From IMG/VR virus record IMGVR_UViG_3300046787_000116, positions 1 through 22,583 of that record: a stretch of DNA of 22,583 nt. One strand, given 5' to 3'. The stretch is from a virus. Shown here in pieces: positions 3,101 through 19,374 of the stretch. The stretch's first letter is position 1. Every line of letters begins with the position of its first letter. Both the position numbers and the translations under genes were made by a program. The notes under the pieces were generated by a model. It saw only the letters and a list, made by a program, of their open reading frames with translations. It ran no database searches and was not told the origin of the DNA.

Positions 3101-3448
3101 ATGCGTATGACTAGACCTTTATGCAATTGCGGCCAACGACCAGCAGCTATTAACTATCGCAAAGGCGGTAAGATATACTATCGCTCTAAATGCGAAGTGT
3201 GTACTAGATATGGCGGTGTCGGAAAGGGGAATCCTAAGTGGTATCAGGACGGGTATCGCATGAAACTTGTATGCGACAAGTGCGGTTATAAGTCAAAGTA
3301 CAAAGAACAATTTAATGTGTTCCATGTGGACGGAAATCTTAATAACTCCCGCCCAGCTAATCTAAAATCAGTATGTGCTAATTGCCAACGGACTCTTCAC
3401 AGGGAAGGGTTTCAGTGGCGTCAAGGGGGTCTAACACCAGATTTTTAA
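3101..3448 (+). CDS. Small HNH-like zinc-ribbon protein
   Basis: This 115-aa protein carries four cysteine pairs: C8/C10, C31/C34, C58/C61 and C92/C95. The second half has the layout of an HNH nuclease: CDKCG, then FNVFHVDGNLNN with H75, NL at 87-88, CANC at 92-95 and H100. The usual His-His pair at the first position is reduced to one His (FHVDG), so activity is uncertain. Similar short zinc proteins ending in LTPDF recur, from memory, in T4-like marine phages, generally without a tested function. An AAGG about ten bases upstream supports ATG 3101 over the second ATG at 3107. The last 71 bases overlap the convergent dNMP kinase gene. It is the only plus-strand gene between two minus-strand blocks. 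Confidence that it is a gene is high; nuclease function is inferred. Confidence 0.75.
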   Translation: MRMTRPLCNCGQRPAAINYRKGGKIYYRSKCEVCTRYGGVGKGNPKWYQDGYRMKLVCDKCGYKSKYKEQFNVFHVDGNLNNSRPANLKSVCANCQRTLHREGFQWRQGGLTPDF

Positions 3449-4061
3449 TTTGGTCAAACAGGTCATCAATCGAACTATTATTCCAAACAGTATGGTCGAT
3501 GTTCCCGCCTACCCATGCTGTTTCACTAGCATGAATTCCTAATCTTTCAAGTTTAGCTTTGCTAATGCTCCACGTAGTATTGCCATTAGGGCCTTGATTC
3601 ATACTAGCAGCAGCGTCATACCACTCAGGATCATCACCACGCTTAATACGAATAACCAAACCTCCTGCATTGTGTATTGCTTTAATTTCGTTTGGAAATC
3701 GTACATCGCTAATAACAATGTTATCTGTAGTTTTACGCATTTTGTTTTCAACGCTTGCAATCCAAATATCATCGTGGAACCCTTTACGGCATACTTCTGT
3801 ACCCCAACGTTGTAGAACCCATCTTGGAGTGAGTTCAGGAATACCCAATCGCTCTGCCCACCAAGTATCTACTTGCTCTCGCCATTCTCTTGCTTCTTTT
3901 GTGCGCCCTTCAAGCAGAACGCGGTCCCAACCAAATACGTTAGCAACCGCGTCTTTAAGGGTATTAGCAAATGAGTCACGTCGGAATCCGTGAAAGTTAA
4001 CCAAATAGTCTGCGGCGGTATCTTTGCCGCTTCCGATAAAACCTACAAAGCCTATAATCAT
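3378..4061 (-). CDS. 1: Deoxynucleoside monophosphate kinase, T4 gene 1 type
   Basis: This 227-aa protein begins with a P-loop, GFIGSGKDT at residues 7-15, followed by a helix and FRRDSFANTLKDAVANVFGW, the pattern of phage dNMP kinases. Further family features are the Trp/Arg-rich lid-like stretch TPRWVLQRWGTEVCR and the VISDVRFPNE strand with its Asp-Arg pair. The enzyme phosphorylates dNMPs to dNDPs and supplies precursors, including any modified nucleotides, for phage DNA synthesis. Length is close to the T4 enzyme (241 aa). It is the last gene of the leftward neck block but has its own sigma70-like promoter (4083-4111), which fits early expression. A hairpin covers its start codon (4060-4082). 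Its 3' end runs 71 bases into the convergent HNH-like gene. The family assignment is strong. Confidence 0.9.
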   Translation of the reverse strand: MIIGFVGFIGSGKDTAADYLVNFHGFRRDSFANTLKDAVANVFGWDRVLLEGRTKEAREWREQVDTWWAERLGIPELTPRWVLQRWGTEVCRKGFHDDIWIASVENKMRKTTDNIVISDVRFPNEIKAIHNAGGLVIRIKRGDDPEWYDAAASMNQGPNGNTTWSISKAKLERLGIHASETAWVGGNIDHTVWNNSSIDDLFDQIKNLVLDPLDATETLPCEESVGN

Positions 4062-4082
4062 AGTATCTCCAGCTGATACTAT
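4060..4082 (-). promoter_or_regulatory. Start-codon hairpin of the dNMP kinase gene
   Basis: A perfect 8-bp inverted repeat, ATAGTATC at 4060-4067 and GATACTAT at 4075-4082, encloses a 7-base loop. In the leftward RNA the 3' arm contains the AU of the AUG start codon. The GGAG Shine-Dalgarno (4067-4070) sits in the loop and the first base of the 3' arm. Such a fold would hinder initiation in any RNA that includes the upstream arm. RNA started at the local promoter should begin near 4076 and would lack most of that arm. Confidence 0.6.
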
Positions 4083-4111
4083 ATATTACAGTTTTAATAC
4101 AATGATGTCAA
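4083..4111 (-). promoter_or_regulatory. Sigma70-like promoter for the dNMP kinase
   Basis: On the minus strand a consensus -35 box TTGACA (4106-4111) is followed by a 17-base spacer and TAATAT (4083-4088) as -10. This is a good match to a host housekeeping promoter. The expected start is near 4076, about 15 bases before the ATG, leaving GGAG as the Shine-Dalgarno. It lies in the short gap just after the stop codon of the preceding gene. Confidence 0.65.
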
Positions 4112-4117
4112 GAGCGA

Positions 4118-4495
4118 TTATACGCCGTATTTGTTCGTTTTGCGTTTTGCAACTGGGCTAACCTTATTAGTAGAGTCCAATTCCAAACTGCGCATATCGC
4201 CATGATTTAAATCTTCGTAGTCTGCGCCAACTACTTTAGCGGCTTGGACAAACATATCTTGTTCTTCTTTAGTATACGGATATATTGTTTTCTTTTTGCC
4301 GTGCCAGCTCTTGCCATCAATATCTGGTTTAGTTTTTCCGTCAGTTCCGGCCATTGCTTGCCCTAGTTTAAACGCCACATAGTCACTATTAGCTTTTTCT
4401 TTATCACCGTAAATATTCATGCCTTTAGTTGACTGTGATTGTCGTTTAGTAGGTTTTGTCTGCCTTACTTCAGTGATAATTTCTTGTACTCGCAT
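4118..4495 (-). CDS. Small conserved phage protein with capsid-targeting-like N-terminus (125 aa)
   Basis: I start the gene at ATG 4495, one base after the stop codon of the upstream gene (TAATATG). An ATG further upstream (4546) would need a long overlap and would hide the shared N-terminus. The protein opens MRVQEIITEV, which resembles the capsid-targeting sequence of T4 internal head proteins: a short leader ending in the prohead-protease site [L/I]-x-E, here I7-T8-E9. The body is basic and polar. A segment around DYVAFKLGQAMAG and a later PYTKEEQDMFVQAAKVVGADY recall, from memory, conserved marine-phage proteins of unknown function. There is no signal peptide or membrane segment. It is co-transcribed with the neck protein gp13 and a second protein with the same kind of leader. 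The function is unknown; packaging into the head is my inference. Confidence 0.7.
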   Translation of the reverse strand: MRVQEIITEVRQTKPTKRQSQSTKGMNIYGDKEKANSDYVAFKLGQAMAGTDGKTKPDIDGKSWHGKKKTIYPYTKEEQDMFVQAAKVVGADYEDLNHGDMRSLELDSTNKVSPVAKRKTNKYGV

Positions 4496-4496
4496 A

Positions 4497-5024
4497 TTAG
4501 CAATTCCACTTACGTAGTGCCAGAGCTTTACGAGTAGGCTTACCATTGGGCTTCTTCATGGGCCCTTTAACGCCGCCCATTCTAGCACAGAATGATTTAC
4601 GGCGCTTGGCTGCTTTTGAGCCTTTTTTTAACTTGCTAGGCTTTGTAGTCACAGCAGTTTGCAGTTTGCTACCTGGATTCTCTCTACGATAACTTGCAAC
4701 ACCCTTGGCATTTAATCCGCCATTTTTGTTCTTGCCCTTGCTAGTTCTCCAAGCGGCTGCTTCGTCTAGAAGTTCGTAGTCGTCCACTGAGTCAAAGTCT
4801 TCCCAAATAACATCGCTGTCAACTCCGTGTGCTTCGGCCCATGCTTCGACCATTTCTTCAATTTGATCAAATAGTTGATCTGCATCTTCTTTGATCTTTT
4901 CGCAGTCGTTTACACGCTTGCCTTTATTCTTGCCAGTGCCGGGTTGTGTACCCACTTTGCGATGGCCTGGCCAGCAGCTTTTCGGCCCTGCTACTCCTTC
5001 GGATAGGATTTCGTATACTTTCAT
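4497..5024 (-). CDS. Basic small phage protein with capsid-targeting-like N-terminus (175 aa)
   Basis: The protein opens MKVYEILSEG, matching the T4 capsid-targeting pattern with a candidate prohead-protease site L7-S8-E9. Next comes a Gly/Lys-rich stretch (CWPGHRKVGTQPGTGKNKGK) and an acidic helical segment (ADQLFDQIEEMVEAWAEAHG, about residues 48-67). The C-terminal 75 residues are strongly basic: GLNAKGVASYRRENPGSKL, then KAAKRRKSFCARMGGVKG, ending LRKWNC. That C-terminal block resembles a domain of unknown function (DUF6321, from memory) found in marine phages, and looks suited to nucleic-acid binding. ATG 5024 is three bases after the gp13-like stop and has AGGG upstream. The gene is confident. 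Delivery with the DNA and DNA binding are inferences. Confidence 0.75.
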   Translation of the reverse strand: MKVYEILSEGVAGPKSCWPGHRKVGTQPGTGKNKGKRVNDCEKIKEDADQLFDQIEEMVEAWAEAHGVDSDVIWEDFDSVDDYELLDEAAAWRTSKGKNKNGGLNAKGVASYRRENPGSKLQTAVTTKPSKLKKGSKAAKRRKSFCARMGGVKGPMKKPNGKPTRKALALRKWNC

Positions 5025-5027
5025 AAA

Positions 5028-5789
5028 TTACCCTATAACAAACGTGTATCCAGTTCCACCAGATATTAACGTTTCTAATTCTTTATCTAATTTTTCTATC
5101 TCTGCTTTACCGTCAGTTTTCAAGTCGCCGCCGTTTAATGCGCCGCCACCTTGTGGCCCAGCAATACTTTGAAACTTACTACGTGCTTCACCTAACATAA
5201 TCTTACAGTTAGCAAGAGCATAATCTCTTACCCATTGTTTAGCATAAATGTCTTCGATGATTGTGTAATCTGGCCTAAAATTCTGACAGCGTAATAATAG
5301 GGTTTCGCCTTCACTAAACGGACGTTGTAATATTCTTAGTGTGCGACTTGTAGGAATCCATTGAAATTCAATGTAACTACCAAACATTTTCCCAATTAGT
5401 TCTTGATAACTTGCAAACATATAATAGGTAGCTATGCCTCCTAGCATAGTACTGTTTAACAAGTAGGTATTTGTATAGGCTAAGTTAAACGGTTCAAAGT
5501 TACTGCCAGTGCCGCCACCGGTTCTAGATCCTAATGTTCGTCTAAAAACACTCTGCACATTGATAATTTCTTGCGGTAGGATATAGTCATTTTTATCCTT
5601 TTCTAGTTCTAAGAACATGTAGCTTTCTTCTACAGCATTAGGACTGCGCTGTCTAAAACGTGTTAGTGCCTTATCTAGAGCGGTTTCGTAATGAATCGGG
5701 TCTAGTTCAACATCGATCATGCCGTCACCTAACATAGTACGGCAGTAATCGAATACTTTTTGTTTAACAGCTTGTGGATTTTCTGACAT
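5028..5789 (-). CDS. 13: Neck protein, T4 gp13 type
   Basis: This 253-aa protein matches, from memory, the gp13 neck proteins of T4-like cyanophages nearly throughout. It opens MSENPQAVKQKVFDYCRTML, with LDPIHYETALDKALTRFRQR, EESYMFLELEKDKNDYILP, INVQSVFRRTLGS, LNSTMLGGIATYYMFASYQE, and a C-terminal WVRDYALANCKIMLGEARSK followed by IAGPQGG and ALNGGDL. Gp13 helps close the head after packaging and joins it to the tail. The ATG is preceded by GGGAG and a late-promoter motif (5805-5812). It is the first gene of a leftward unit containing two small proteins and dNMP kinase. Unlike the usual T4-like order, the gp14-type gene is not downstream but diverges from it. Confidence 0.75.
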   Translation of the reverse strand: MSENPQAVKQKVFDYCRTMLGDGMIDVELDPIHYETALDKALTRFRQRSPNAVEESYMFLELEKDKNDYILPQEIINVQSVFRRTLGSRTGGGTGSNFEPFNLAYTNTYLLNSTMLGGIATYYMFASYQELIGKMFGSYIEFQWIPTSRTLRILQRPFSEGETLLLRCQNFRPDYTIIEDIYAKQWVRDYALANCKIMLGEARSKFQSIAGPQGGGALNGGDLKTDGKAEIEKLDKELETLISGGTGYTFVIG

Positions 5790-5804: not shown

Positions 5805-5812
5805 TATTTATC
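5805..5812 (-). promoter_or_regulatory. T4-like late promoter motif for the gp13 unit
   Basis: The minus strand reads GATAAATA 16 bases upstream of the gp13-like ATG, with GGGAG between. It abuts, without any gap, a plus-strand GCTAAATA (5813-5820), so two opposed promoter-like elements lie back to back. The spacing leaves only a very short leader. Confidence 0.55.
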
Positions 5813-8841: not shown

Positions 8842-9269
8842 TAGAAATTGATTGTTCTGGTGCATTAATTTGTGCCAGAACAACTCACAGGTTTTTGTTA
8901 TTACAGAAAGCAAACGGTAAACATGCCGGACGTTGGGGATTAGTAGGTGGAACTAATCATTCGGGTGAATCAGCGTGGCAAGGTCTCAATAGAGAGATCG
9001 AAGAAGAATTAGGTGCAATGCCTGATATTAAGAAAACAGTACCATTGGAAAGATTTGTATCTAACGACAGTCTTTTTAAATTTCACACATATTTTTGCGT
9101 AGTTGAATCTGAGTTTGTACCTGTGTTAAGTAGCGAACATATTGCATGGGGGTGGTTTGATCTCAACAATCTTCCTAAACCTGTACATAAGGGATTGGAT
9201 CTTAGTCTGCGTAATCGCATTATACAAACTAAGATCCAAACAGTTATCGATATTATCGATAGTCTTTAA
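8823..9269 (+). CDS. Nudix hydrolase
   Basis: This 148-aa protein has a complete Nudix box at residues 43-65 (G-x5-E-x7-REIEEELGA), with Arg57, Glu58, Glu61 and Glu62 in place for metal binding. The strand before it (FLLLQKANGKHAGRWGLVGG) and the following segments fit the fold. The family cleaves a nucleoside diphosphate linked to another group (ADP-ribose, NADH, capped RNA, dNTPs). The substrate cannot be read from the motif. The length is typical of a single-domain enzyme. ATG 8823 has an AAGGG Shine-Dalgarno inside the end of the gp15-like gene, and the 19-base overlap suggests coupled translation with the structural genes. The stop codon shares the bases TTAA with the stop of the convergent 2308-aa gene. 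Confidence 0.9.
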   Translation: MENSTLIEIDCSGALICARTTHRFLLLQKANGKHAGRWGLVGGTNHSGESAWQGLNREIEEELGAMPDIKKTVPLERFVSNDSLFKFHTYFCVVESEFVPVLSSEHIAWGWFDLNNLPKPVHKGLDLSLRNRIIQTKIQTVIDIIDSL

Positions 9270-12200
9270 GCCTGCGCTTCACCCCAACGAATAATAATAT
9301 TAGAAGTTACTGCGTCGCCACTAACTTTATATACGTTAATTGCTAACACGTCAGGACCATTAGGAAATGTACCTCTACCGCCTAATGGAGTATTAGTTAA
9401 CTCTTTCAACTGCCCTAGATCTAATGTTGCACGTTCACCTGGGTTAGCAATGAACGAGAATACAGTTTCACCCGGTTGTGCATACGGAGGCTGTACGAAA
9501 CTAAATGTTATAGTACCTGTGCTAGCTGCAAGTGTTCCAGTATATGAGTTTGTAAACTGAACTTCGTAGTACTGTGTTGGTCCAAACGTTCTTAATGTAA
9601 TAGCGTTAATTGTAGTGTTAGTTGGGAATGTTACAGTGTTACCGGTTGTTACACTAGTACCAACCTTTGCTGATGTAGCTGCAAAACTTGTAGTATCAAA
9701 CCATGCAATGTTTCTGTTAGTTAATGATGACGTTGCTACAACCGTGAAAGCATTACTAGTGTTTGCATTAATATTACCAGACGTTGTATTAGATATTTGA
9801 AAGTATCCATAACTATCAGTAGGACTAATATATCCGCTAATGATAGTTGTATTAGATCTAATATTAGAACCAGTAATAGTCTTACCAGTCACTGCTGCTA
9901 AATCATTATTACCGAACGTTGCTCTATAATCAGTTGCGTTTACATATATGTAATTGCTGTTGCCGCCCGAGGCGTTGGTTCCAGAATCTAACTGAACTGA
10001 TACAACCGGTGATGATGTAGCAGTAGCAGTAGTTGCACTAGCACCTGATGACCATACAACAGAACCACCAGCAGCAACTTGAGAGAAGCTTGGCTGTCCA
10101 CCTTGCGCTACGCTGTTTAGTCTAGTCCAACCAACGTCACTTGGGTTTAAGGGATAATTATTTGGATTCAAAATTCCCTCAACAACAATGCCACCTGCTT
10201 GTGCAGTAGTTGGATTATCTGAAGTAATTTCAAGTCCTTGCAGTAATAACTGCGCACGGTTTAGAAGTTCACGTTCTCCCAAGTCACCAGTAATAGCATT
10301 AGAAACGCTAGGAGCTAGTCGAATCATGAATGCTGTTTGTCTAGTTGTTGAGATTGCAATATTCTTTTCTGCATATGAGAAAATGTAGCCACGGTCTTCA
10401 TCAAACCCGCCGTCTGTTAAGAACGCACTACCCCAGTGGCTAATTAACGGCGTAATTGTATTAGATAATAATATTACACCTGTTTTGTCAGCATGTGATA
10501 GTGCTGCGCCTGCTTCGTATGTACGGTCAGCTCCGGCTTGGAAGTTTGAAAACGGTGCTGATCGTGTGCATCCAGTTAATCTATGACCAGTTCTTCCTGT
10601 GAATGAAACTATCTCATTATCAATGTACACAGTACCAGCATCTGGGAAGAAGCTACCGTCTTCTAAATCAATGTACGTTTGTGAATTATCCATAGCTGCT
10701 GCTAGTTTACCCGGGAATCCTTCATTGCTTACTTCGTAACGAACAGGTAAGTTACCTGAACGCATAAACGCTTCAGTGTTGACGTTACTGTTACGCATTC
10801 TATGTGCAAATACAAAATTACCGTTTGAACCCCTTAACATGAAGTCGATAAAACCAGCACCATACCAACTGTATTGAATACCAATCATCTGCATTTTTGC
10901 AATATCTATTTTGTATCCGCTTGGTCCTGTTCCGTCTAATCGGTCTAAGTTAAATTCTGATTGTTTAACTTTCTTATCAACAATTAACATAATTTTAGTG
11001 CCGCTTGCAGCAGACACACCTCGGAAGTCGGGCGATACTGACATCTGAGTCTGGCTTATTACATTAGTTACAACGTGTGTCATACCTTTAATAACAATTC
11101 TGTCGCCGGCTTTAGTTTGATCACGGAACCGAGTATTTGTTCCAATTAATAAGTTATCGTCGACTGAAATGCTGCCGGTTCCTGACAATTGTTTAGTACC
11201 TGTTCTTTGATTAACGCTAAGGTTAGTACCGTCATATTCCCAGAAAATTCCGTTCTGATCGTCGAATATTCCGCTGCGGACTGTTGCACCGTGCCAACTT
11301 ATTACACTCATTTGTGCAGCGAAACCTAACACAGCCGTTGTTGAACCTAAACGTCTTTGAGCTCGAACTTTAAAAGTACGCTCATCTACAACGTCCACGA
11401 CTGTATAATCAAACTCAGGAGGTGTTGCAACATCACTTCCGCTGTTGTAGCCTTCTGTTTCAATACCTAATAATCGAATTACTCCGCCAACTTGTACGCC
11501 ATGATCGTTGTCGTCCGTTACTACAGTAATAAGAGAATTAACTTCGATTCCGTCTGCTTCAACTGATCTTAGATCGTAGCTTGGCGCAAATAATGCACCA
11601 GTAGTGTACATGATACCTTTACCGGACTGATATCGAATATACTTTTTACTTTGACGAATTGCCTGTGAACCATGTTGCGGACCGCCTGTGCCTAACTGAA
11701 CACCGCCATCAAAAGGTCGATGAGTGAAGAAGCTATCAGGCCTTGGATATATTGTTCCTAAGATTGGTGTTCCAACTGTACTAATTGCACCTGGTGCCCT
11801 GGCTTGATAACGCAAACTAGTAGTACTCGGTATATCTGTTGCAAAGTACGAACCCGATGCAAGTAAGTGGTTGTTCGACCCGTTATCACTGCTAACTGTA
11901 ACAATAAATGTATTACCAGGCACTAATCCATGTGGGTTTATAAAATCAACTTCTACAGTAGCTAGTGCAGAGAACGTTACTGTTGAACCTTCTAACACCA
12001 ATGAAGATGTTGGTTCTGTCATGTTTATTGTTGAGATAAACTCAAATGTTGCTCCAGCTGCTGCTGATGAGAAGTTAGTTGTAAATCCAGAAATGCCGCC
12101 GCTGCCGTTAACTCCTGTTACATTGATTAATAAATCATTTGCGGGCGATGTACCGTCTAACAATGTTCCTGGGATTATAATTCTGTTACCAACTTGGTAG

Positions 12201-15200
12201 CCGGTTCCTTGCACTGCATTTTGAATATTAGAATATGCACTAGAACCCCTAGTAAGATTAAATCGTGCGTTAAGCCCAGTATTTTGTTGATTGCTACCAA
12301 ATGCATCTGCATATGGGAAACTTGGAGTAGCTGCTGTACCTGAATCAGTAATTGTAGAAATTACTCCAGTAGTTACACCGTTAGTTGTAGCAATTGTAAT
12401 TGTCAAGTCGTTAGTTGGAGATGTACCAACTAGGCTAGTGCCAGGAATAACAATCTTCTGGTTAGGACCGTAATTAGTACCGCCGTTAGTTACAGTAGCA
12501 GTATATGCTCCTGCATCTAGCTCTACCGTAAATACTGCACCACTACCTACTACTACATCGCCGGCAACGCCAGTTACACTAACTGCGTTCTTAGCAGTAC
12601 CTGCCCAACCAACGTTGAGAATTTCACCAGTGGTTGGGTTTATACCATTAACTGTGATTACTAAGTTATTTGTCGGTGCAGTGCCGCCAAGTGCTGTTCC
12701 TAATACTGTTATAGTGTCACCTTCTTGGAAGTCTGTGCCGCCAGGGCTAACAGTGACTCCATACGACGATCCTGTAACTTGTACGTTAACTACAGCATCG
12801 ACTCCTAATCCCGAAGTAGTGTATGCTACTGTATTGAATGTTTTTAATGCATTTGGTGCAGTTCCTGCAATCGTTGCTGTTGTTATTGCACCAGACCCGC
12901 CAATGGCAGTTACAGTTATATACGCATCATTTGTTACGTCTGCACCACCAACTGGGTACATTAAACTACCTAGTACCTTTATTCTATCACCGACTGTATA
13001 CCCAGATCCTCCAGACCCGCCAACTGTAACACTAGTATAAACGTTGTTTTCCCACGAAACATTGAAGTCTCCAAGGACGCCAATGCCGCCTAAGTTTGTG
13101 CCCGTTATTCCAGTCAACGTAGTAGTTCCGGTAAATGGGTCGCCTGAGCTGTCAACTGTAAGAATGTTACCAGATACTCCAACAGATGCTACGATCAACA
13201 ATAGATCGTTTGTAGGTGTTGCTCCGCCAATAATTGTTCCACTAATAATAATTCTGTCGCCTACTTGGAAATCAGTTCCTGCGGTTGCAATAGTTACGTC
13301 ATATACACCTGCGTTATTGTCTACATCAAATGTTGCCCCCACACCAACTGAACCGTCGTTAGTACCTGCAATATTTGTGTAAGTTGCTTCATTTGCTGTT
13401 ACCTCAGCAGTAAACTCGTCACTGAAGTTTACAACATTACCAACTACTGATGTTACAAACATAGCAGTTCCGTCGCCTCTATCTACAGCAAGGTTAGGAA
13501 TTACGCCCGATGTTGATGCTAATTCAATACTTGAATCACCAATATTTGCATTTGCTGCTACGGGTTTAGAAGAATAAACGCCGCCACCGCCGTTAATAGA
13601 TGTAACTTGAGATCCCAATGGGATGTTAGCGTTAGTTAACGGTGATCCAACTTCCGGTGCCATTCCTGAGAATGCAAAAATTGAACTACCTGGCAGTGTA
13701 TCGAGCACTGTAGTTAAACTTCCACTTGACCCGTTACTTGAAATAACAAACGTAGGTCTTCCAATAGATGCACCTGTATAGAAACCAGATTTTCTTAATT
13801 GAGTGTAGTTAGTTGACAATACTTGACCATTTGCTGTTCCAACTTTTGCCTTTGCATAATATGTAAATGTTGTATTAGATGGCACCGTAGTAATAATAAA
13901 ATTACCTTCAGCACGGGCCGAACCGGTTACTGAACTAGCAAGTGCCTTAATTGATATAGGAGTACCGGGTTCAAATCCGTGCGGAGCAACGGTTGTTATT
14001 GTTATCTTAGATTGACCGATGCCACTAGTGCCTGTACTAGCATCTGTTACTACTGATACTACATCTGTATCAGTACCGGGTAATTCGTATACAGATGGAT
14101 ATCCCCTTAACGTACTAATTGCACTCCATTTTGTTGGCTGCAAGCCGTATTCAAAGTCAGCGTCAAGCATAGACTGCGGAGTTGCAATACGGTTACGTTC
14201 GATTGCATCTGTACCGAAGTCGTATGGTCGTGTTCTAACTTCAGGTTCTTCTATGAATACTTGAATGTCGTCTGTTGCTGCATGACTGCGAGTGTCGTAG
14301 TTGAATATTACAGTAGTGATGCCGTCGGTTGTTTGTAAGTATGTTACAAAATCGTCGTCAGTGCCTTTTAACTGAGTTGTTACTGTGCCGCCAGTTGATA
14401 CAGTTGAGAAGTTGTAAATAATTTGATTACGAGTAGTGTTAGTGATCAATAGCAATTCATTTGAATTGTAATTGCCTTGAATTTTAATAGATCCAACACC
14501 TTGTGCTACAGCAACTGGCATAGCACTTAAACCGTTTTCTATAACATCTACTGTATTTGTTACTAGGCCATTAATAGCAATAGATGCACTTGCAGTGATT
14601 GCATTTGTAGTTGCACTTACAAATAAATGTCGAGATGTATCAGACGAAGTGCCTACGTTTACTGTAATTGTTGTATCAGTAACTGCTGTAATATATACAG
14701 GAACATTATATGACGGATCTGTCGTTCTTGGATAGCTATGGTCTGTAGCATGGCCGTCTAGCGCACAGGTAAATGTCAAGCTGCTTGGTGCAATATTAAT
14801 TGGGCTGCTAACTGTAAGATTATGAGAACCAATAGTTAATACCATTACTCCGGTAGTCGGAGTGTATACTATATTTGTTGGAGTAAATTGATAAGACTCG
14901 GCCGTCTTAGTATTATCGATGACTTGTGGTTCAGTTCCTTGGACATCATACTGTTCGTTTAACAGAATATAATTTGTAATTAGATCGCCGATGAAAGCGT
15001 GTGTATCTATTTCTGGAATTCTAGTCCCGTCGACTTGCGCAACACTTCCTTCCCAATAGTACTTAATAACACTTCGTAATTTCTGATTTCCACCGTAGCG
15101 TAAATCGTGCAAATATGCATCTAGTACGTAGCCCAAATCTCTTTCGCATTTGCTTTGATTATACGTGTAATCGGGATCCCATGTAATTGATTCAATGATT

Positions 15201-16192
15201 GTTGTTTTAGCACTATCTATTGCAGTCTTTGATGCTTGCACACCAGCTGCTGCCCATGTAATAGACGGAACAGTGCGTGTGCCTGGTAGAGATCCGGTTC
15301 CGCTTTCAACTACGTCTGCAACAATATCAATCAAGTTAGCTACTACAGCGCCAGTACCAGAGTTAGCATTTGTACCCGATGTAACTTGTGTTTCAGTATT
15401 TCCTACACTAGCAGTAATTGCAATACCTTGCACAACATTAGAAATGATAGATTGCAAATGACGGTATGCAGCCACTGTCTGTGCAGTATGTTCTACAGAA
15501 ATGCCACTTGCACCGCTTGTTGCAAAATAATAAAAGAATTTTGCACTATCATAAGTTGCACTATTTCCGCCATATAACACATCGTATGCTGCTGCATATA
15601 ATGCATATTTTGTATCTCTAGTACACTTAGCTACATCATGATTATGTAACGGATACGTTACATTGACCCATGCATTCACTTCAGCAGCTAAAAAGTTTAA
15701 GTTTGCAATAATTTTATCTTTGGCAGCAATTTGACTAGCAGATGCATCGCTTGGATTACTATACGAATGTGTACTAGCAGCAGCGCGGCCATTTTGTGCA
15801 ATATCAATAATCTCATCGAAAGCCGCAGTTGATCTTGCTAATGATGTTACATCTAACGAAACTTCAGTTAGTGCGGCAACTGCATTTTTTGCTCTGTTTA
15901 TTGTTCTGAAGACTGTCGGTGATAAGTCGAGTGAATTAACTTCAGTTAAACCTAAGAAAATAGAATTATAATTTGTACCAAGTGCTATATCAAATGCAAC
16001 GCCGTCGAGGATGTACCCAATGTCGCGCTGGCATTTTGCAGCGTCAATAATTTCTTGATTTATATACGCAATACACTCAGCTAACAAAAAGTCTCTGTTT
16101 GCATTTAGTAAACTGTATGCATCTGGGTACACATAATCTAGAGCTCCAATGCCTGGAGAAAATACGTAATTCTTAATCTGCTTTTTTGCCAT
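9266..16192 (-). CDS. Giant virion structural / tail protein (2308 aa) with tandem repeats
   Basis: The protein opens MAKKQIKNYVFSPGIGALDY and has no signal peptide. The N-terminal part has three helical modules with a [CT]xRDxxYxLxAxxxD...G(G/T)N pattern near residues 54-81, 190-223 and 348-381, familiar from large cyanophage tail proteins. Thr/Ser/Gly/Val-rich beta sequence follows. Five tandem units of about 86-90 aa span residues 943-1374, each with a VGDRI-like step, a Gly-Thr turn and a PTNDL-like step. Later come YGAGFIDFMLRG, AHRMRNSNVNTEAFMRSG and a VYIDNEIVSFTGRTG region (about 1760-1880), then LLNRAQLLLQGLEI. It is probably a baseplate-periphery or fibre protein; I cannot assign a T4 gene number. 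It starts two bases after the upstream fibre gene, so it is co-translated with it. That it is a structural gene is very likely; its exact place in the particle is unknown. Confidence 0.8.
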   Translation of the reverse strand: MAKKQIKNYVFSPGIGALDYVYPDAYSLLNANRDFLLAECIAYINQEIIDAAKCQRDIGYILDGVAFDIALGTNYNSIFLGLTEVNSLDLSPTVFRTINRAKNAVAALTEVSLDVTSLARSTAAFDEIIDIAQNGRAAASTHSYSNPSDASASQIAAKDKIIANLNFLAAEVNAWVNVTYPLHNHDVAKCTRDTKYALYAAAYDVLYGGNSATYDSAKFFYYFATSGASGISVEHTAQTVAAYRHLQSIISNVVQGIAITASVGNTETQVTSGTNANSGTGAVVANLIDIVADVVESGTGSLPGTRTVPSITWAAAGVQASKTAIDSAKTTIIESITWDPDYTYNQSKCERDLGYVLDAYLHDLRYGGNQKLRSVIKYYWEGSVAQVDGTRIPEIDTHAFIGDLITNYILLNEQYDVQGTEPQVIDNTKTAESYQFTPTNIVYTPTTGVMVLTIGSHNLTVSSPINIAPSSLTFTCALDGHATDHSYPRTTDPSYNVPVYITAVTDTTITVNVGTSSDTSRHLFVSATTNAITASASIAINGLVTNTVDVIENGLSAMPVAVAQGVGSIKIQGNYNSNELLLITNTTRNQIIYNFSTVSTGGTVTTQLKGTDDDFVTYLQTTDGITTVIFNYDTRSHAATDDIQVFIEEPEVRTRPYDFGTDAIERNRIATPQSMLDADFEYGLQPTKWSAISTLRGYPSVYELPGTDTDVVSVVTDASTGTSGIGQSKITITTVAPHGFEPGTPISIKALASSVTGSARAEGNFIITTVPSNTTFTYYAKAKVGTANGQVLSTNYTQLRKSGFYTGASIGRPTFVISSNGSSGSLTTVLDTLPGSSIFAFSGMAPEVGSPLTNANIPLGSQVTSINGGGGVYSSKPVAANANIGDSSIELASTSGVIPNLAVDRGDGTAMFVTSVVGNVVNFSDEFTAEVTANEATYTNIAGTNDGSVGVGATFDVDNNAGVYDVTIATAGTDFQVGDRIIISGTIIGGATPTNDLLLIVASVGVSGNILTVDSSGDPFTGTTTLTGITGTNLGGIGVLGDFNVSWENNVYTSVTVGGSGGSGYTVGDRIKVLGSLMYPVGGADVTNDAYITVTAIGGSGAITTATIAGTAPNALKTFNTVAYTTSGLGVDAVVNVQVTGSSYGVTVSPGGTDFQEGDTITVLGTALGGTAPTNNLVITVNGINPTTGEILNVGWAGTAKNAVSVTGVAGDVVVGSGAVFTVELDAGAYTATVTNGGTNYGPNQKIVIPGTSLVGTSPTNDLTITIATTNGVTTGVISTITDSGTAATPSFPYADAFGSNQQNTGLNARFNLTRGSSAYSNIQNAVQGTGYQVGNRIIIPGTLLDGTSPANDLLINVTGVNGSGGISGFTTNFSSAAAGATFEFISTINMTEPTSSLVLEGSTVTFSALATVEVDFINPHGLVPGNTFIVTVSSDNGSNNHLLASGSYFATDIPSTTSLRYQARAPGAISTVGTPILGTIYPRPDSFFTHRPFDGGVQLGTGGPQHGSQAIRQSKKYIRYQSGKGIMYTTGALFAPSYDLRSVEADGIEVNSLITVVTDDNDHGVQVGGVIRLLGIETEGYNSGSDVATPPEFDYTVVDVVDERTFKVRAQRRLGSTTAVLGFAAQMSVISWHGATVRSGIFDDQNGIFWEYDGTNLSVNQRTGTKQLSGTGSISVDDNLLIGTNTRFRDQTKAGDRIVIKGMTHVVTNVISQTQMSVSPDFRGVSAASGTKIMLIVDKKVKQSEFNLDRLDGTGPSGYKIDIAKMQMIGIQYSWYGAGFIDFMLRGSNGNFVFAHRMRNSNVNTEAFMRSGNLPVRYEVSNEGFPGKLAAAMDNSQTYIDLEDGSFFPDAGTVYIDNEIVSFTGRTGHRLTGCTRSAPFSNFQAGADRTYEAGAALSHADKTGVILLSNTITPLISHWGSAFLTDGGFDEDRGYIFSYAEKNIAISTTRQTAFMIRLAPSVSNAITGDLGERELLNRAQLLLQGLEITSDNPTTAQAGGIVVEGILNPNNYPLNPSDVGWTRLNSVAQGGQPSFSQVAAGGSVVWSSGASATTATATSSPVVSVQLDSGTNASGGNSNYIYVNATDYRATFGNNDLAAVTGKTITGSNIRSNTTIISGYISPTDSYGYFQISNTTSGNINANTSNAFTVVATSSLTNRNIAWFDTTSFAATSAKVGTSVTTGNTVTFPTNTTINAITLRTFGPTQYYEVQFTNSYTGTLAASTGTITFSFVQPPYAQPGETVFSFIANPGERATLDLGQLKELTNTPLGGRGTFPNGPDVLAINVYKVSGDAVTSNIIIRWGEAQA
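12071..13365 (-). repeat. Five tandem ~270-bp coding repeats in the giant tail protein
   Basis: Five consecutive units encode the same beta-rich pattern: Gly-x-Gly-Ala-x-Phe, then G-x-Y-x-V-T-V, GGT-x-[FY]-x-VGD-x-I, GT-x-LGG-[TS]-[AS]-PTND-L and a G-x-I turn. The VGD-like steps lie near 13255, 12985, 12713, 12452 and 12183, giving spacings of 261-272 bases. Unit 2 has a longer turn (YPVGGADVTND). The units have diverged, so this is an old repeat, not a recent duplication. Confidence 0.75.
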
Positions 16193-17112: not shown

Positions 17113-17541
17113 TTAGATAGTCAAAGGTTGCTGATTGCAAAAATATTGAACTGTATATATTGCTTTTGCGCCTGCGCTTGTGAAAGTTACTTGGTTGTTT
17201 ACTGTAACTTCTATAGGATTTATAGAAACTTCAACATAGCTATTATTGACGTCAACTGACACATTTAGCAAATCATTACCTAAGTTATTTCTAGCATATA
17301 TTATAATGCTAGCAGTTTGCACATTAGCGACTACTAAACATTTGATGATCTCTCTGTTAGACATGCTGAGATCTGTTGAAATTGTATATTCCGCACTAGA
17401 AAAATCACCAACGTGCCATCTATCTATTACGGTATTAGGGTACGCTTGTTTCCAAGGCCCGTTGTGAGATACGGCTGCATTGTTTTTAGCTAACAATGAG
17501 CCGTTTGCTCCTATCCCAAAAAACTTAGTTATATTAAACAT
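17113..17541 (-). CDS. Small virion-associated protein (142 aa), function unknown
   Basis: This protein opens MFNITKFFGIGANGSLLAKN and continues with WHVGDFSSAEYTISTDLSMS, NREIIKCLVVANVQTASIII and a beta-rich C-terminal half with alternating hydrophobic residues. The segment A-E-Y-T-I-S-[TV]-D followed by K-x-L-V-V-A is one I recall from small proteins beside fibre genes in T4-like marine phages. No enzyme motif, membrane segment or signal peptide is visible. The gene lies 36 bases upstream of the 293-aa fibre gene and just after the carbamoyltransferase. It has a late-promoter-like motif but no recognisable Shine-Dalgarno before ATG 17541, and no alternative downstream start is convincing. 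It is probably a fibre- or baseplate-associated beta protein. Confidence 0.65.
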   Translation of the reverse strand: MFNITKFFGIGANGSLLAKNNAAVSHNGPWKQAYPNTVIDRWHVGDFSSAEYTISTDLSMSNREIIKCLVVANVQTASIIIYARNNLGNDLLNVSVDVNNSYVEVSINPIEVTVNNQVTFTSAGAKAIYTVQYFCNQQPLTI

Positions 17542-17564: not shown

Positions 17565-17570
17565 TTTATT
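17563..17570 (-). promoter_or_regulatory. T4-like late promoter motif before the 142-aa gene
   Basis: The minus strand reads AATAAATA, 22 bases upstream of ATG 17541, and includes the TAA stop of the carbamoyltransferase gene. It fits the NATAAATA pattern and the spacing seen at the other genes. Confidence 0.5.
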
Positions 17571-19374
17571 TGTTTTTAACTGTTATCATTACCCCGTATT
17601 CTGGCAAATATAAGTATTCTAGCTCGCTTTGCTGTAGAGTCCATAGAGCATCTTCTAACGTCTCAACTAAGGGTTCACCGCCTAAGTTGAAGCTGGTATT
17701 AAACACCATTGGCACACCTTTTCGGGCTTTGAACGTTTTGATAATATTGTAGTAGTGTGGATTCTGCTCGCGTGTTACTGTTTGAATCCTGCAAGATCCA
17801 TCTACGTGAATAATACTAGGAATCTTCTCTGCAACACCGGGTCTGCAATGTACTGCATACATCATAGTTGGACTACTATCCATGCCGCGAAGGTCAAACC
17901 ATTCATGCACATCTTCTTCTAAAATACTTCCTGCAAAAGGCCTAAAATATTCACGATGTTTAATCATATTAACAAAGTCTTTGCCGTCTTCGAACGTTGG
18001 GTCAAATACTAAACTTCTATTGCCTAATGCACGTGGACCGTTTTCGCTGCGACCTTGGAACAATGCTACGATGTTTTTTGAGGTAATTAAATCAACTAAG
18101 GTATCGTGTGTTGCCGGAGCAACTGTGCCGCCGTATAGTGCAGCTAATCTTTCAATTTCAGATTGATCGTACGAATATTGTGGACCTAAATACAATGAAT
18201 CTTGTCTTGTAAATTTAACATCATCAACCTTAAGTCCTTTATAGAACAGCAATGCGGCACCAATTGCTGTTCCTGCATCATTAGATATGGGTTCAACATA
18301 CAACTTAATACCATGCTTGTTAAGTGTTTCTAAATAATAGTAGTTAGCAACACAGTTTAAACCGTAGCCACCGCTGAGCACAACATTTTTATTACCTGTC
18401 ATCTCAACAGCTTTTAAAATTAAATTTAAAACTTGCTCTTGTGTTTCAGTTTGACATGCATATGCTAAATCTCTACGATTTTGCATCTTTGTCAGGTCCG
18501 AACTTGAACTGTCTGCTAGTTCTTCAAACATATCTGCATTAACTGATGCGCCGTTTGGGTATGTAGGAATTACTACATTCCTGTCTGACTGCGGGTATTT
18601 TGCATTAGAGGTAAACAGTTTAGGAATTTTATCGTTAGGCTTACCGTATGGAAATAGTCCCATAGTTTTACCAGCTTCAATACTGCTAAACCCGCAATAT
18701 TGTGTTACTGCTTCATATACTTTAGTAATACCAGCTTTTTCAGTAATAACGGCTATGTGTGTACTTTCAGTTCCGTCTTCGTTAACTTCCCCGTAGAATC
18801 CGCTAGGACATTTACTAACAACAGTTTCGGGCATAGGACCTCTTGTACCAATATGCTTGTATGCTGTAGTAAAATTTGCAGGGTAATTACATTTAAATAC
18901 TGTCTCGGTTTCCCAGGCAGTGATACTTTCGTGAGCAGTGTTAAGGGTTAAGAAAGTACCGGCACCGTCAACTACTACTGCGGTTGCAGTGTCAAACCCT
19001 GAACGATAAAATGCACAAGCTGCGTGTAGTTTATGATGCAAGTGACTTAGGTCAACTACTTGGTTGTGCTCAATTAAGTTGCCGTGTTGAGCAATTAATC
19101 CTAATTTTCTAGCCAAGCCAGTGTATACATCATCTCCGGTAAAATCAATCTTACCGGCAGTATCTTTTAAACTCTGTGTATGTGCTACTACTAAGTAATC
19201 TAATTTCTTGGTGTAGTCTAAAATTTTAATCATAGAGGCGAATGGGCCGCCGTCATATTTGTTTCTAGAAAATCTTTCTTCTTCGATACTAAAAATAACT
19301 TCTCCGTTTTTTAGTAAACATACTCCTGAGTTATGTCCTCGGGCAATTGCTGCAATCCAAATATCTTTTTTCAT
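17566..19374 (-). CDS. Carbamoyltransferase, NodU/CmcH family
   Basis: This 602-aa protein is a full-length member of the family that moves a carbamoyl group from carbamoyl phosphate, through a carbamoyl-adenylate, to a sugar or other hydroxyl. The N-terminal ASKHA-like domain opens IAAIARGHNSGVCLLKNGEV with SIEEERFSRNKYDGG. The metal-site histidines lie in DLSHLHHKLHAACAFY (about 108-123), followed by VVVDGAGT. The C-terminal YrdC-like part has GRSENGPRALGNRS (about 441-454), YFRPFAGSILEED and FNTSFNLGGEPLVET (about 557-571). All main motifs are intact. The ATG overlaps the stop of the SGNH-like gene by four bases (ATGA), so translation is coupled. With the upstream GT9-like and SGNH-like genes it forms a sugar-modification set inside the fibre operon. 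The acceptor is unknown. Confidence 0.92.
   Translation of the reverse strand: MKKDIWIAAIARGHNSGVCLLKNGEVIFSIEEERFSRNKYDGGPFASMIKILDYTKKLDYLVVAHTQSLKDTAGKIDFTGDDVYTGLARKLGLIAQHGNLIEHNQVVDLSHLHHKLHAACAFYRSGFDTATAVVVDGAGTFLTLNTAHESITAWETETVFKCNYPANFTTAYKHIGTRGPMPETVVSKCPSGFYGEVNEDGTESTHIAVITEKAGITKVYEAVTQYCGFSSIEAGKTMGLFPYGKPNDKIPKLFTSNAKYPQSDRNVVIPTYPNGASVNADMFEELADSSSSDLTKMQNRRDLAYACQTETQEQVLNLILKAVEMTGNKNVVLSGGYGLNCVANYYYLETLNKHGIKLYVEPISNDAGTAIGAALLFYKGLKVDDVKFTRQDSLYLGPQYSYDQSEIERLAALYGGTVAPATHDTLVDLITSKNIVALFQGRSENGPRALGNRSLVFDPTFEDGKDFVNMIKHREYFRPFAGSILEEDVHEWFDLRGMDSSPTMMYAVHCRPGVAEKIPSIIHVDGSCRIQTVTREQNPHYYNIIKTFKARKGVPMVFNTSFNLGGEPLVETLEDALWTLQQSELEYLYLPEYGVMITVKNK

Follow-up and report, generated by a model that had tools for sequence, protein, structure and literature searches.

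The kinase gene and its neighbors

The locus studied here raises the question of how an early gene for an enzyme of nucleotide metabolism could remain in a late operon. The window, by which we mean the whole 22,583-nucleotide stretch that was analysed, is a 22.6 kb viral contig, and its source phage belongs to a large, uncultured family of T4-like phages. On the minus strand, a gp13-like neck gene is followed by a DUF6321 gene, an ORF of 142 aa and a dNMP kinase gene, as follows.

5805–5812, minus strand: late-promoter-like motif GATAAATA, 5' of gp13 (motif scan)
5028–5789, minus strand: gp13-like neck / head-tail adaptor gene, heading the presumed late unit (phrog_211, E 1.7e-33)
4497–5024, minus strand: DUF6321 protein gene, a member of the presumed read-through unit (PF19846, E 3.8e-22)
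4118–4546, minus strand: 142-aa ORF adjoining the kinase gene on its upstream side, with its stop 56 nt before the kinase start
3378–4061, minus strand: dNMP (deoxynucleoside monophosphate) kinase gene, 227 aa (Pfam PF21448, E 6.6e-11; phrog_139, E 1.5e-51)

The 142-aa ORF is usually missing from relatives, and gp13 is found upstream of the kinase gene in 169 of 200 distinct relatives. The motif before gp13 in these relatives is mostly CTAAATA or GTAAATA, the former being the inferred late motif of the T4-like phage Aeh1 (PMC1524935). An earlier note on this DNA had placed the kinase gene behind a late gp13 unit, and gp13 with a late promoter motif of the T4/Aeh1 type is indeed what lies upstream. 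Among cultured phages, no kinase with at least 60% identity to that of the window was found. The nearest cultured kinases are those of giant phages, including CBB, 121Q, RaK2 and Munch, and in most of the nearest cultured giant phages the kinase gene is flanked by the neck gene and the tail-sheath gene.

Other genes of the window were seen in passing. An HNH-endonuclease-like ORF (3101–3448, plus strand; phrog_10822, a weak match) runs on the opposite strand and shares 71 nt with the 3' end of the kinase gene, and a similar ORF occupies the same position in the relative L168. An ORF of 2308 aa (9266–16192, minus strand) matches no Pfam family, and a Nol-like carbamoyltransferase (17566–19374, minus strand; phrog_1601) is an auxiliary gene.

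A predicted promoter within a hairpin at the kinase start

The 56-base gap between the 142-aa ORF and the kinase gene contains a promoter-like sequence, TTGACA-17-TAATAT, and most of a hairpin. The elements are these.

4106–4111, minus strand: -35 box TTGACA (sequence; TTGAC is retained in most relatives)
4083–4088, minus strand: -10 box TAATAT, 17 bases from the -35 box (sequence; TAAATT, TAAAAT, TATAAT or TATACT in relatives)
4076 +/- 1, minus strand: predicted transcription start, within the left arm (placed only by its spacing from the -10 box)
4075–4091, minus strand: left arm of the masking hairpin (core 4075–4082; extension 4083–4091 with A4084 bulged; overlaps the -10 box; folding, covariation)
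4067–4070, minus strand: Shine-Dalgarno sequence GGAG, three bases in the loop and the final G paired (sequence)
4052–4067, minus strand: right arm of the masking hairpin (core 4060–4067; extension through the AUG and codons 2–4; folding, covariation)

The earlier note had described a sigma70-like promoter and a perfect 8-bp stem (4060–4067 with 4075–4082) that takes in A4061 and T4060 of the ATG, and both were found at the positions given there. The Shine-Dalgarno sequence, read at 4070–4067, lies mostly in the loop as claimed, with three bases unpaired. After the -10 box the minus strand reads ATAGTATC (4082–4075), the loop AGCTGGA (4074–4068) and GATACTAT (4067–4060). The 8-bp core thus stands, but the note had understated the feature, which extends to 16 pairs with one bulge (4091–4075 with 4067–4052). 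When 4097–4030 was folded, CUGUAAU-[A]-UAUAGUAUC paired with GAUACUAUG-AUUAUAG, with one bulged A, at -14.9 kcal/mol (z -2.4; 4 of 200 shuffles were equally good). The extension pairs C4091–U4085, a segment made up of part of the -10 box and spacer, with codons 2–4, and the 16-bp hairpin covers part of the Shine-Dalgarno sequence, the entire AUG and codons 2–4, its other side taking in most of the -10 box.

For a read-through RNA of 300 nt, folding predicts every one of the eight core pairs with a probability of at least 0.99. The predicted cost of opening the start region is 11.8 kcal/mol in the read-through RNA versus 4.9 kcal/mol in RNA beginning at 4076, and folding of both RNAs thus agrees with the proposal that the start would be hidden in the first and not in the second. 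The RNA from the kinase's own promoter is still structured; its 4.9 kcal/mol is about that of an average gene, and the ribosome binding site is not highly accessible.

Taken by itself, the 8-bp stem is unremarkable and not significant: the window holds 11 perfect 8-bp stems with loops of 3–10 nt, compared to 4.4 +/- 3.0 in shuffles. The promoter is one of 46 scan matches versus 57 expected, with no excess over shuffles. No Rfam family matched the window at its gathering score, and the exact hairpin sequence was present in one further contig. A hairpin before the gene at 17541, beside a late-like motif, was dropped as a candidate, being AT-rich, with no Shine-Dalgarno sequence and a z of -0.94. 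Because stem and promoter were weak by sequence alone, relatives were collected. Eighty loci with the window's kinase, and further sets with more distant kinases, gave 200 distinct leaders, including 69 of clade A, whose kinases begin with MI(I/V)GFVG, and 57 of clade B, whose kinases begin with MI(I/V)G(V/I)CG.

Conservation of the promoter

The exact hexamer TTGACA occurs in 42 of the 58 distinct leaders of the first set, most of the others deviating at the last base only, and nearly all 58 have a -10-like hexamer at the 17-base spacing. Most of the 200 leaders retain TTGAC-17-TAnnnT. As the earlier note had it, the predicted start follows most of the left arm, the conserved sigma70-type promoter having its -10 box in that arm. 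Other promoters of these phages are mostly TTGACA-17-TATAAT, many of them in blocks, a pattern consistent with host-type early promoters. No match to the T4 late promoter TATAAATA with at most one mismatch was found within 4060–4120. Given the resemblance of TAAATT to TAAATA, the -10 box was also considered as a late promoter; this reading was rejected, since clade B and the window have TATACT and TAATAT and the -35 box is retained.

The promoter spacer (4083–4111 and its counterparts in relatives) is also conserved, as a direct repeat TGTAAT-N5-TGTWAT with an 11-nt period that is clearest in clade B. In ten larger contigs this repeat had a single match, at the displaced kinase promoter of L168, and therefore no regulon was found; the repeat is a possible regulator site.

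Conservation and covariation of the hairpin

A contiguous stem of at least 8 bp over the AUG was present in 40 of 58 kinase leaders versus 2 of 71 clusters of other genes from the same contigs. In a structure-free test, the -10 box fixed the left columns and the AUG the right ones, and every register was compared. In clade A and in clade B alike the stem came out as the top register; marine clade C had no single shared register in this test. Kinase trees from which the first 12 codons were left out require at least 16 changes from one Watson-Crick pair to another in clade A and at least 40 in clade B. The stems are divergent yet complementary, examples being AGTATC/GATACT, ATTATC/GATAAT, AACATC/GATGTT, AGAGC/GCTCT, AGCGT/ACGCT, AGTAGT/ACTACT and AGAACT/AGTTCT. 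In clade B (18 rows), pairing was 87% and the covariation score was 0.353, compared to 0.183 +/- 0.032 for shuffled and 0.036–0.159 for slid alignments. Covariation in clade A (17 rows) was weaker, moderate but positive, its score being reached by 2 of 500 shuffles.

Swapping the halves of the hairpin among leaders weakened the interaction from -8.2 to -6.3 kcal/mol in clade A, from -7.7 to -5.3 in clade B and from -7.6 to -5.7 in clade C, and in none of 100 permutations were swapped halves as good as native ones in any of these clades. The same comparison 30 nt upstream was negative, with z scores of 1.3 and -0.6 versus -7.7 and -9.2 for the hairpin; therefore relatedness alone does not explain the advantage of native halves. 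The median predicted cost of opening the ribosome binding site, in read-through versus own-promoter RNA, was 10.2 versus 4.8 kcal/mol in clade A and 7.7 versus 4.9 in clade B. The earlier note had named loss of the stem in relatives as an outcome that would tell against it; instead, relatives retain the stem through compensating changes. In sum, comparison of the leaders indicates that the hairpin is a feature of the RNA, preserved through compensating base changes, and that the arrangement is real and conserved.

Leaders lacking the promoter or the hairpin

Among 174 leaders, 131 had promoter and hairpin, 18 the promoter only, 13 the hairpin only and 12 neither. Fisher's test, which ignores relatedness, gave a p of 1e-4 for this co-occurrence; with phylogenetic pairing the link was not significant (median p 0.375), there being too few independent events. 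About one in eight promoter-bearing leaders (18/149) lacks a clear hairpin, and distant relatives have hairpins with no recognisable promoter. Promoter-less leaders have a median opening cost of 4.7 kcal/mol, and in most promoter-less relatives the kinase start forms an ATGA overlap with the upstream ORF. The start hairpin is absent in the promoter-less leaders L107, L146, L137, L160, L162, L154, L161 and L151. In clades A and B, the class with the promoter, the upstream stop is mostly 40–69 nt from the kinase start, so that terminating ribosomes should not open the hairpin. In L168 an extra ORF separates the promoter from the kinase gene and the hairpin is lost. That ORF (L168:1977–2492) matches phrog_274, labelled DNA endonuclease V, and its ATG lies nearly at the predicted transcription start.

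Alternative explanations

The inverted repeat overlaps a promoter, and it might be a DNA operator at which a dimeric regulator, bound over -10 to +17, controls that promoter; the conserved spacer repeat shows that a regulator may bind nearby. A DNA site of this kind is very unlikely given that the arm sequences are fully divergent among relatives while their complementarity is kept, that loop length varies, and that pairing reaches into codons 2–4. Counts of G-U versus A-C in a fixed register were ambiguous owing to base composition and were replaced by a comparison of sense and antisense folds. The sense fold was the stronger in 55 of 69 clade A leaders and 49 of 57 clade B leaders, a bias that a DNA site does not need, and RNA is therefore favored over a DNA operator. 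An RNA site for a protein, such as the kinase itself or a repressor like RegA or gp43, would be a translational operator, and T4 has start-site operators of this kind (PMC3014915). We consider it highly improbable here: the left arm would be missing from RNA made at the conserved promoter, and the loop sequence is unconserved except for the Shine-Dalgarno sequence. That the pairing merely reflects chance complementarity between an AT-rich promoter and a Shine-Dalgarno region could be argued from the 11 comparable stems in the window and from promoter matches that are not over-represented, but it is scarcely credible in the face of the covariation, swapped-half and strand tests with their controls.

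The element might also be mainly an intrinsic terminator of read-through, with masking secondary. A U run follows the stem in some relatives and in a second gene family treated below; in the kinase leaders L254, L259, L260 and L264 the hairpin AATGCTC/GGGCATT and a T run stand directly before the ATG in a terminator-like form. Terminator-like hairpins are also present at the same place, between gp13 and the kinase gene, in the cultured giant phages CBB, GAP32, Hallingskeid and Munch, where they may be another way to block read-through from gp13. In the window, however, ACTATGATTATAGG and not a U run lies 3' of the stem, as a U run is missing in nearly all of clades A and B, and neither the G+C-rich stem and U run of intrinsic terminators nor a hit of the terminator scan was found there. 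Termination as the main role is very unlikely.

Proposed mechanism

We propose that the hairpin is probably a translational insulator that the kinase gene's own promoter bypasses. Read-through RNA from the gp13 unit would carry both arms, so that the AUG and part of the Shine-Dalgarno sequence would be hidden and translation would be poor. RNA from the sigma70-type promoter would begin after most of the left arm, could not form the hairpin and would be translated. Synthesis of the kinase would then follow the activity of its own promoter, which probably precedes late transcription, and would not scale with the amount of RNA for virion proteins. We infer the start at 4076, the early use of the promoter, the read-through from gp13 and the loss of translation. 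As to purpose, shut-off of the kinase late in infection, the earlier note's suggestion, and simple insulation of kinase levels against late RNA are equally compatible with the data.

The same layout in other genes

Four large contigs were scanned, and 54 genes had a promoter near the start. For 12 of these (22%) the start was more than 6 kcal/mol costlier to open in read-through RNA than in RNA from the gene's own promoter, versus 5.9% of genes without such a promoter, for which a 15-nt leader was used in the scoring. The 12 include four kinase genes and two genes for a small phrog_12534 protein that also matches phrog_639, a transcriptional regulator. In 56 distinct leaders of this second family the Shine-Dalgarno sequence is often paired with the promoter spacer, the median predicted opening cost is 8.1 kcal/mol in read-through versus 1.2 in own-promoter RNA, and native halves beat swapped ones (0/100 permutations); the sense fold was not stronger than the antisense fold. 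In L384, L386, L390, L404, L423 and L445 the pairing is with the spacer between the -35 and -10 boxes, often with U5-6 after the stem, and therefore the element may terminate read-through as well as mask the start.

Two further cases were noted. At a J-domain (DnaJ-like) gene (L452, near 3500; G002:63490–63600) a perfect hairpin, AAAAAGGTATAGTA..TACTATACCTTTTT, carries the gene's -10 box in its loop. In Agrobacterium phage Atu_ph07 a 13-bp hairpin, GGTATTCTCTGTATAT/ATATAGAGAATACC (L089:2440–2492), stands directly before the kinase start and holds the probable Shine-Dalgarno sequence; it is a possible independent case, its promoter being uncertain.

We suggest, tentatively and at somewhat less than even confidence, that self-bypassed insulators against read-through form a general class in T4-like giant phages. 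They would serve single early genes left behind within late operons, mirror the logic of T4 e and soc and have arisen repeatedly. In such a class a host-type promoter would be built into a hairpin's left arm, and the hairpin would mask the start, terminate read-through, or both. Its repeated origins would include kinase clades A–C, the phrog_12534/phrog_639-like gene and probably a J-domain gene.

Comparison with known systems

The start sites of T4 genes e, soc, 49 and I-TevI are sequestered in read-through RNA, in e and I-TevI an inner promoter yields RNA free of the mask, and masking lowers translation of gene e about 100-fold (PMC3014915; PMC2988022). The kinase leader resembles these genes, and mobE of Aeh1, in that the ribosome binding site and AUG are predicted to lie within a helix of the longer RNA. 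It resembles e and I-TevI in that a promoter inside the left arm, with a predicted start, gives RNA without that arm. The inner late promoter of the T4 class is not found here. T4 combines a late inner promoter with masking of early or middle RNA, whereas here the inner promoter is of the sigma70 type and a late-type motif precedes the upstream unit; therefore the timing appears reversed. Further, the kinase serves nucleotide metabolism, unlike the T4 genes, which serve lysis, structure or homing. The masking mechanism is thus already known from T4, and the apparent reversal of timing is what seems to differ. No description of a reversed phage case was found in the open-licence literature.

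Fold-back inhibition of the IS10/Tn10 transposase, reportedly described by Davis, Simons and Kleckner in 1985, is the nearest precedent for a gene's own promoter bypassing a mask against outside transcription. There, too, outside RNA is said to fold over the transposase start, and RNA from the element's own promoter, pIN, to lack the upstream arm. IS10 differs in that it shields a mobile element from chance outside promoters, whereas the kinase gene belongs to a timed phage operon. The PeSL cassettes of T4-type phages, reportedly described by Arbiol et al. in 2010, likewise couple a sigma70-like early promoter to a stem-loop; that stem-loop is said to be a terminator, whereas the kinase hairpin covers the AUG and has the -10 box within an arm. 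In lambda int retroregulation by sib, as here, the fate of an RNA is set by the promoter that made it, but sib acts through RNase III and decay from the 3' side, and the kinase hairpin masks a start.

Implications

Start masking in what appears to be the reverse direction would keep a gene for nucleotide metabolism out of late expression behind a neck gene, a proposal for which comparative support is strong. The design is compact, promoter and mask occupying about 60 nt, and it carries a caution, that -10 boxes and start codons can be mutually constrained through pairing. It would explain how an early enzyme gene could remain in a late operon.
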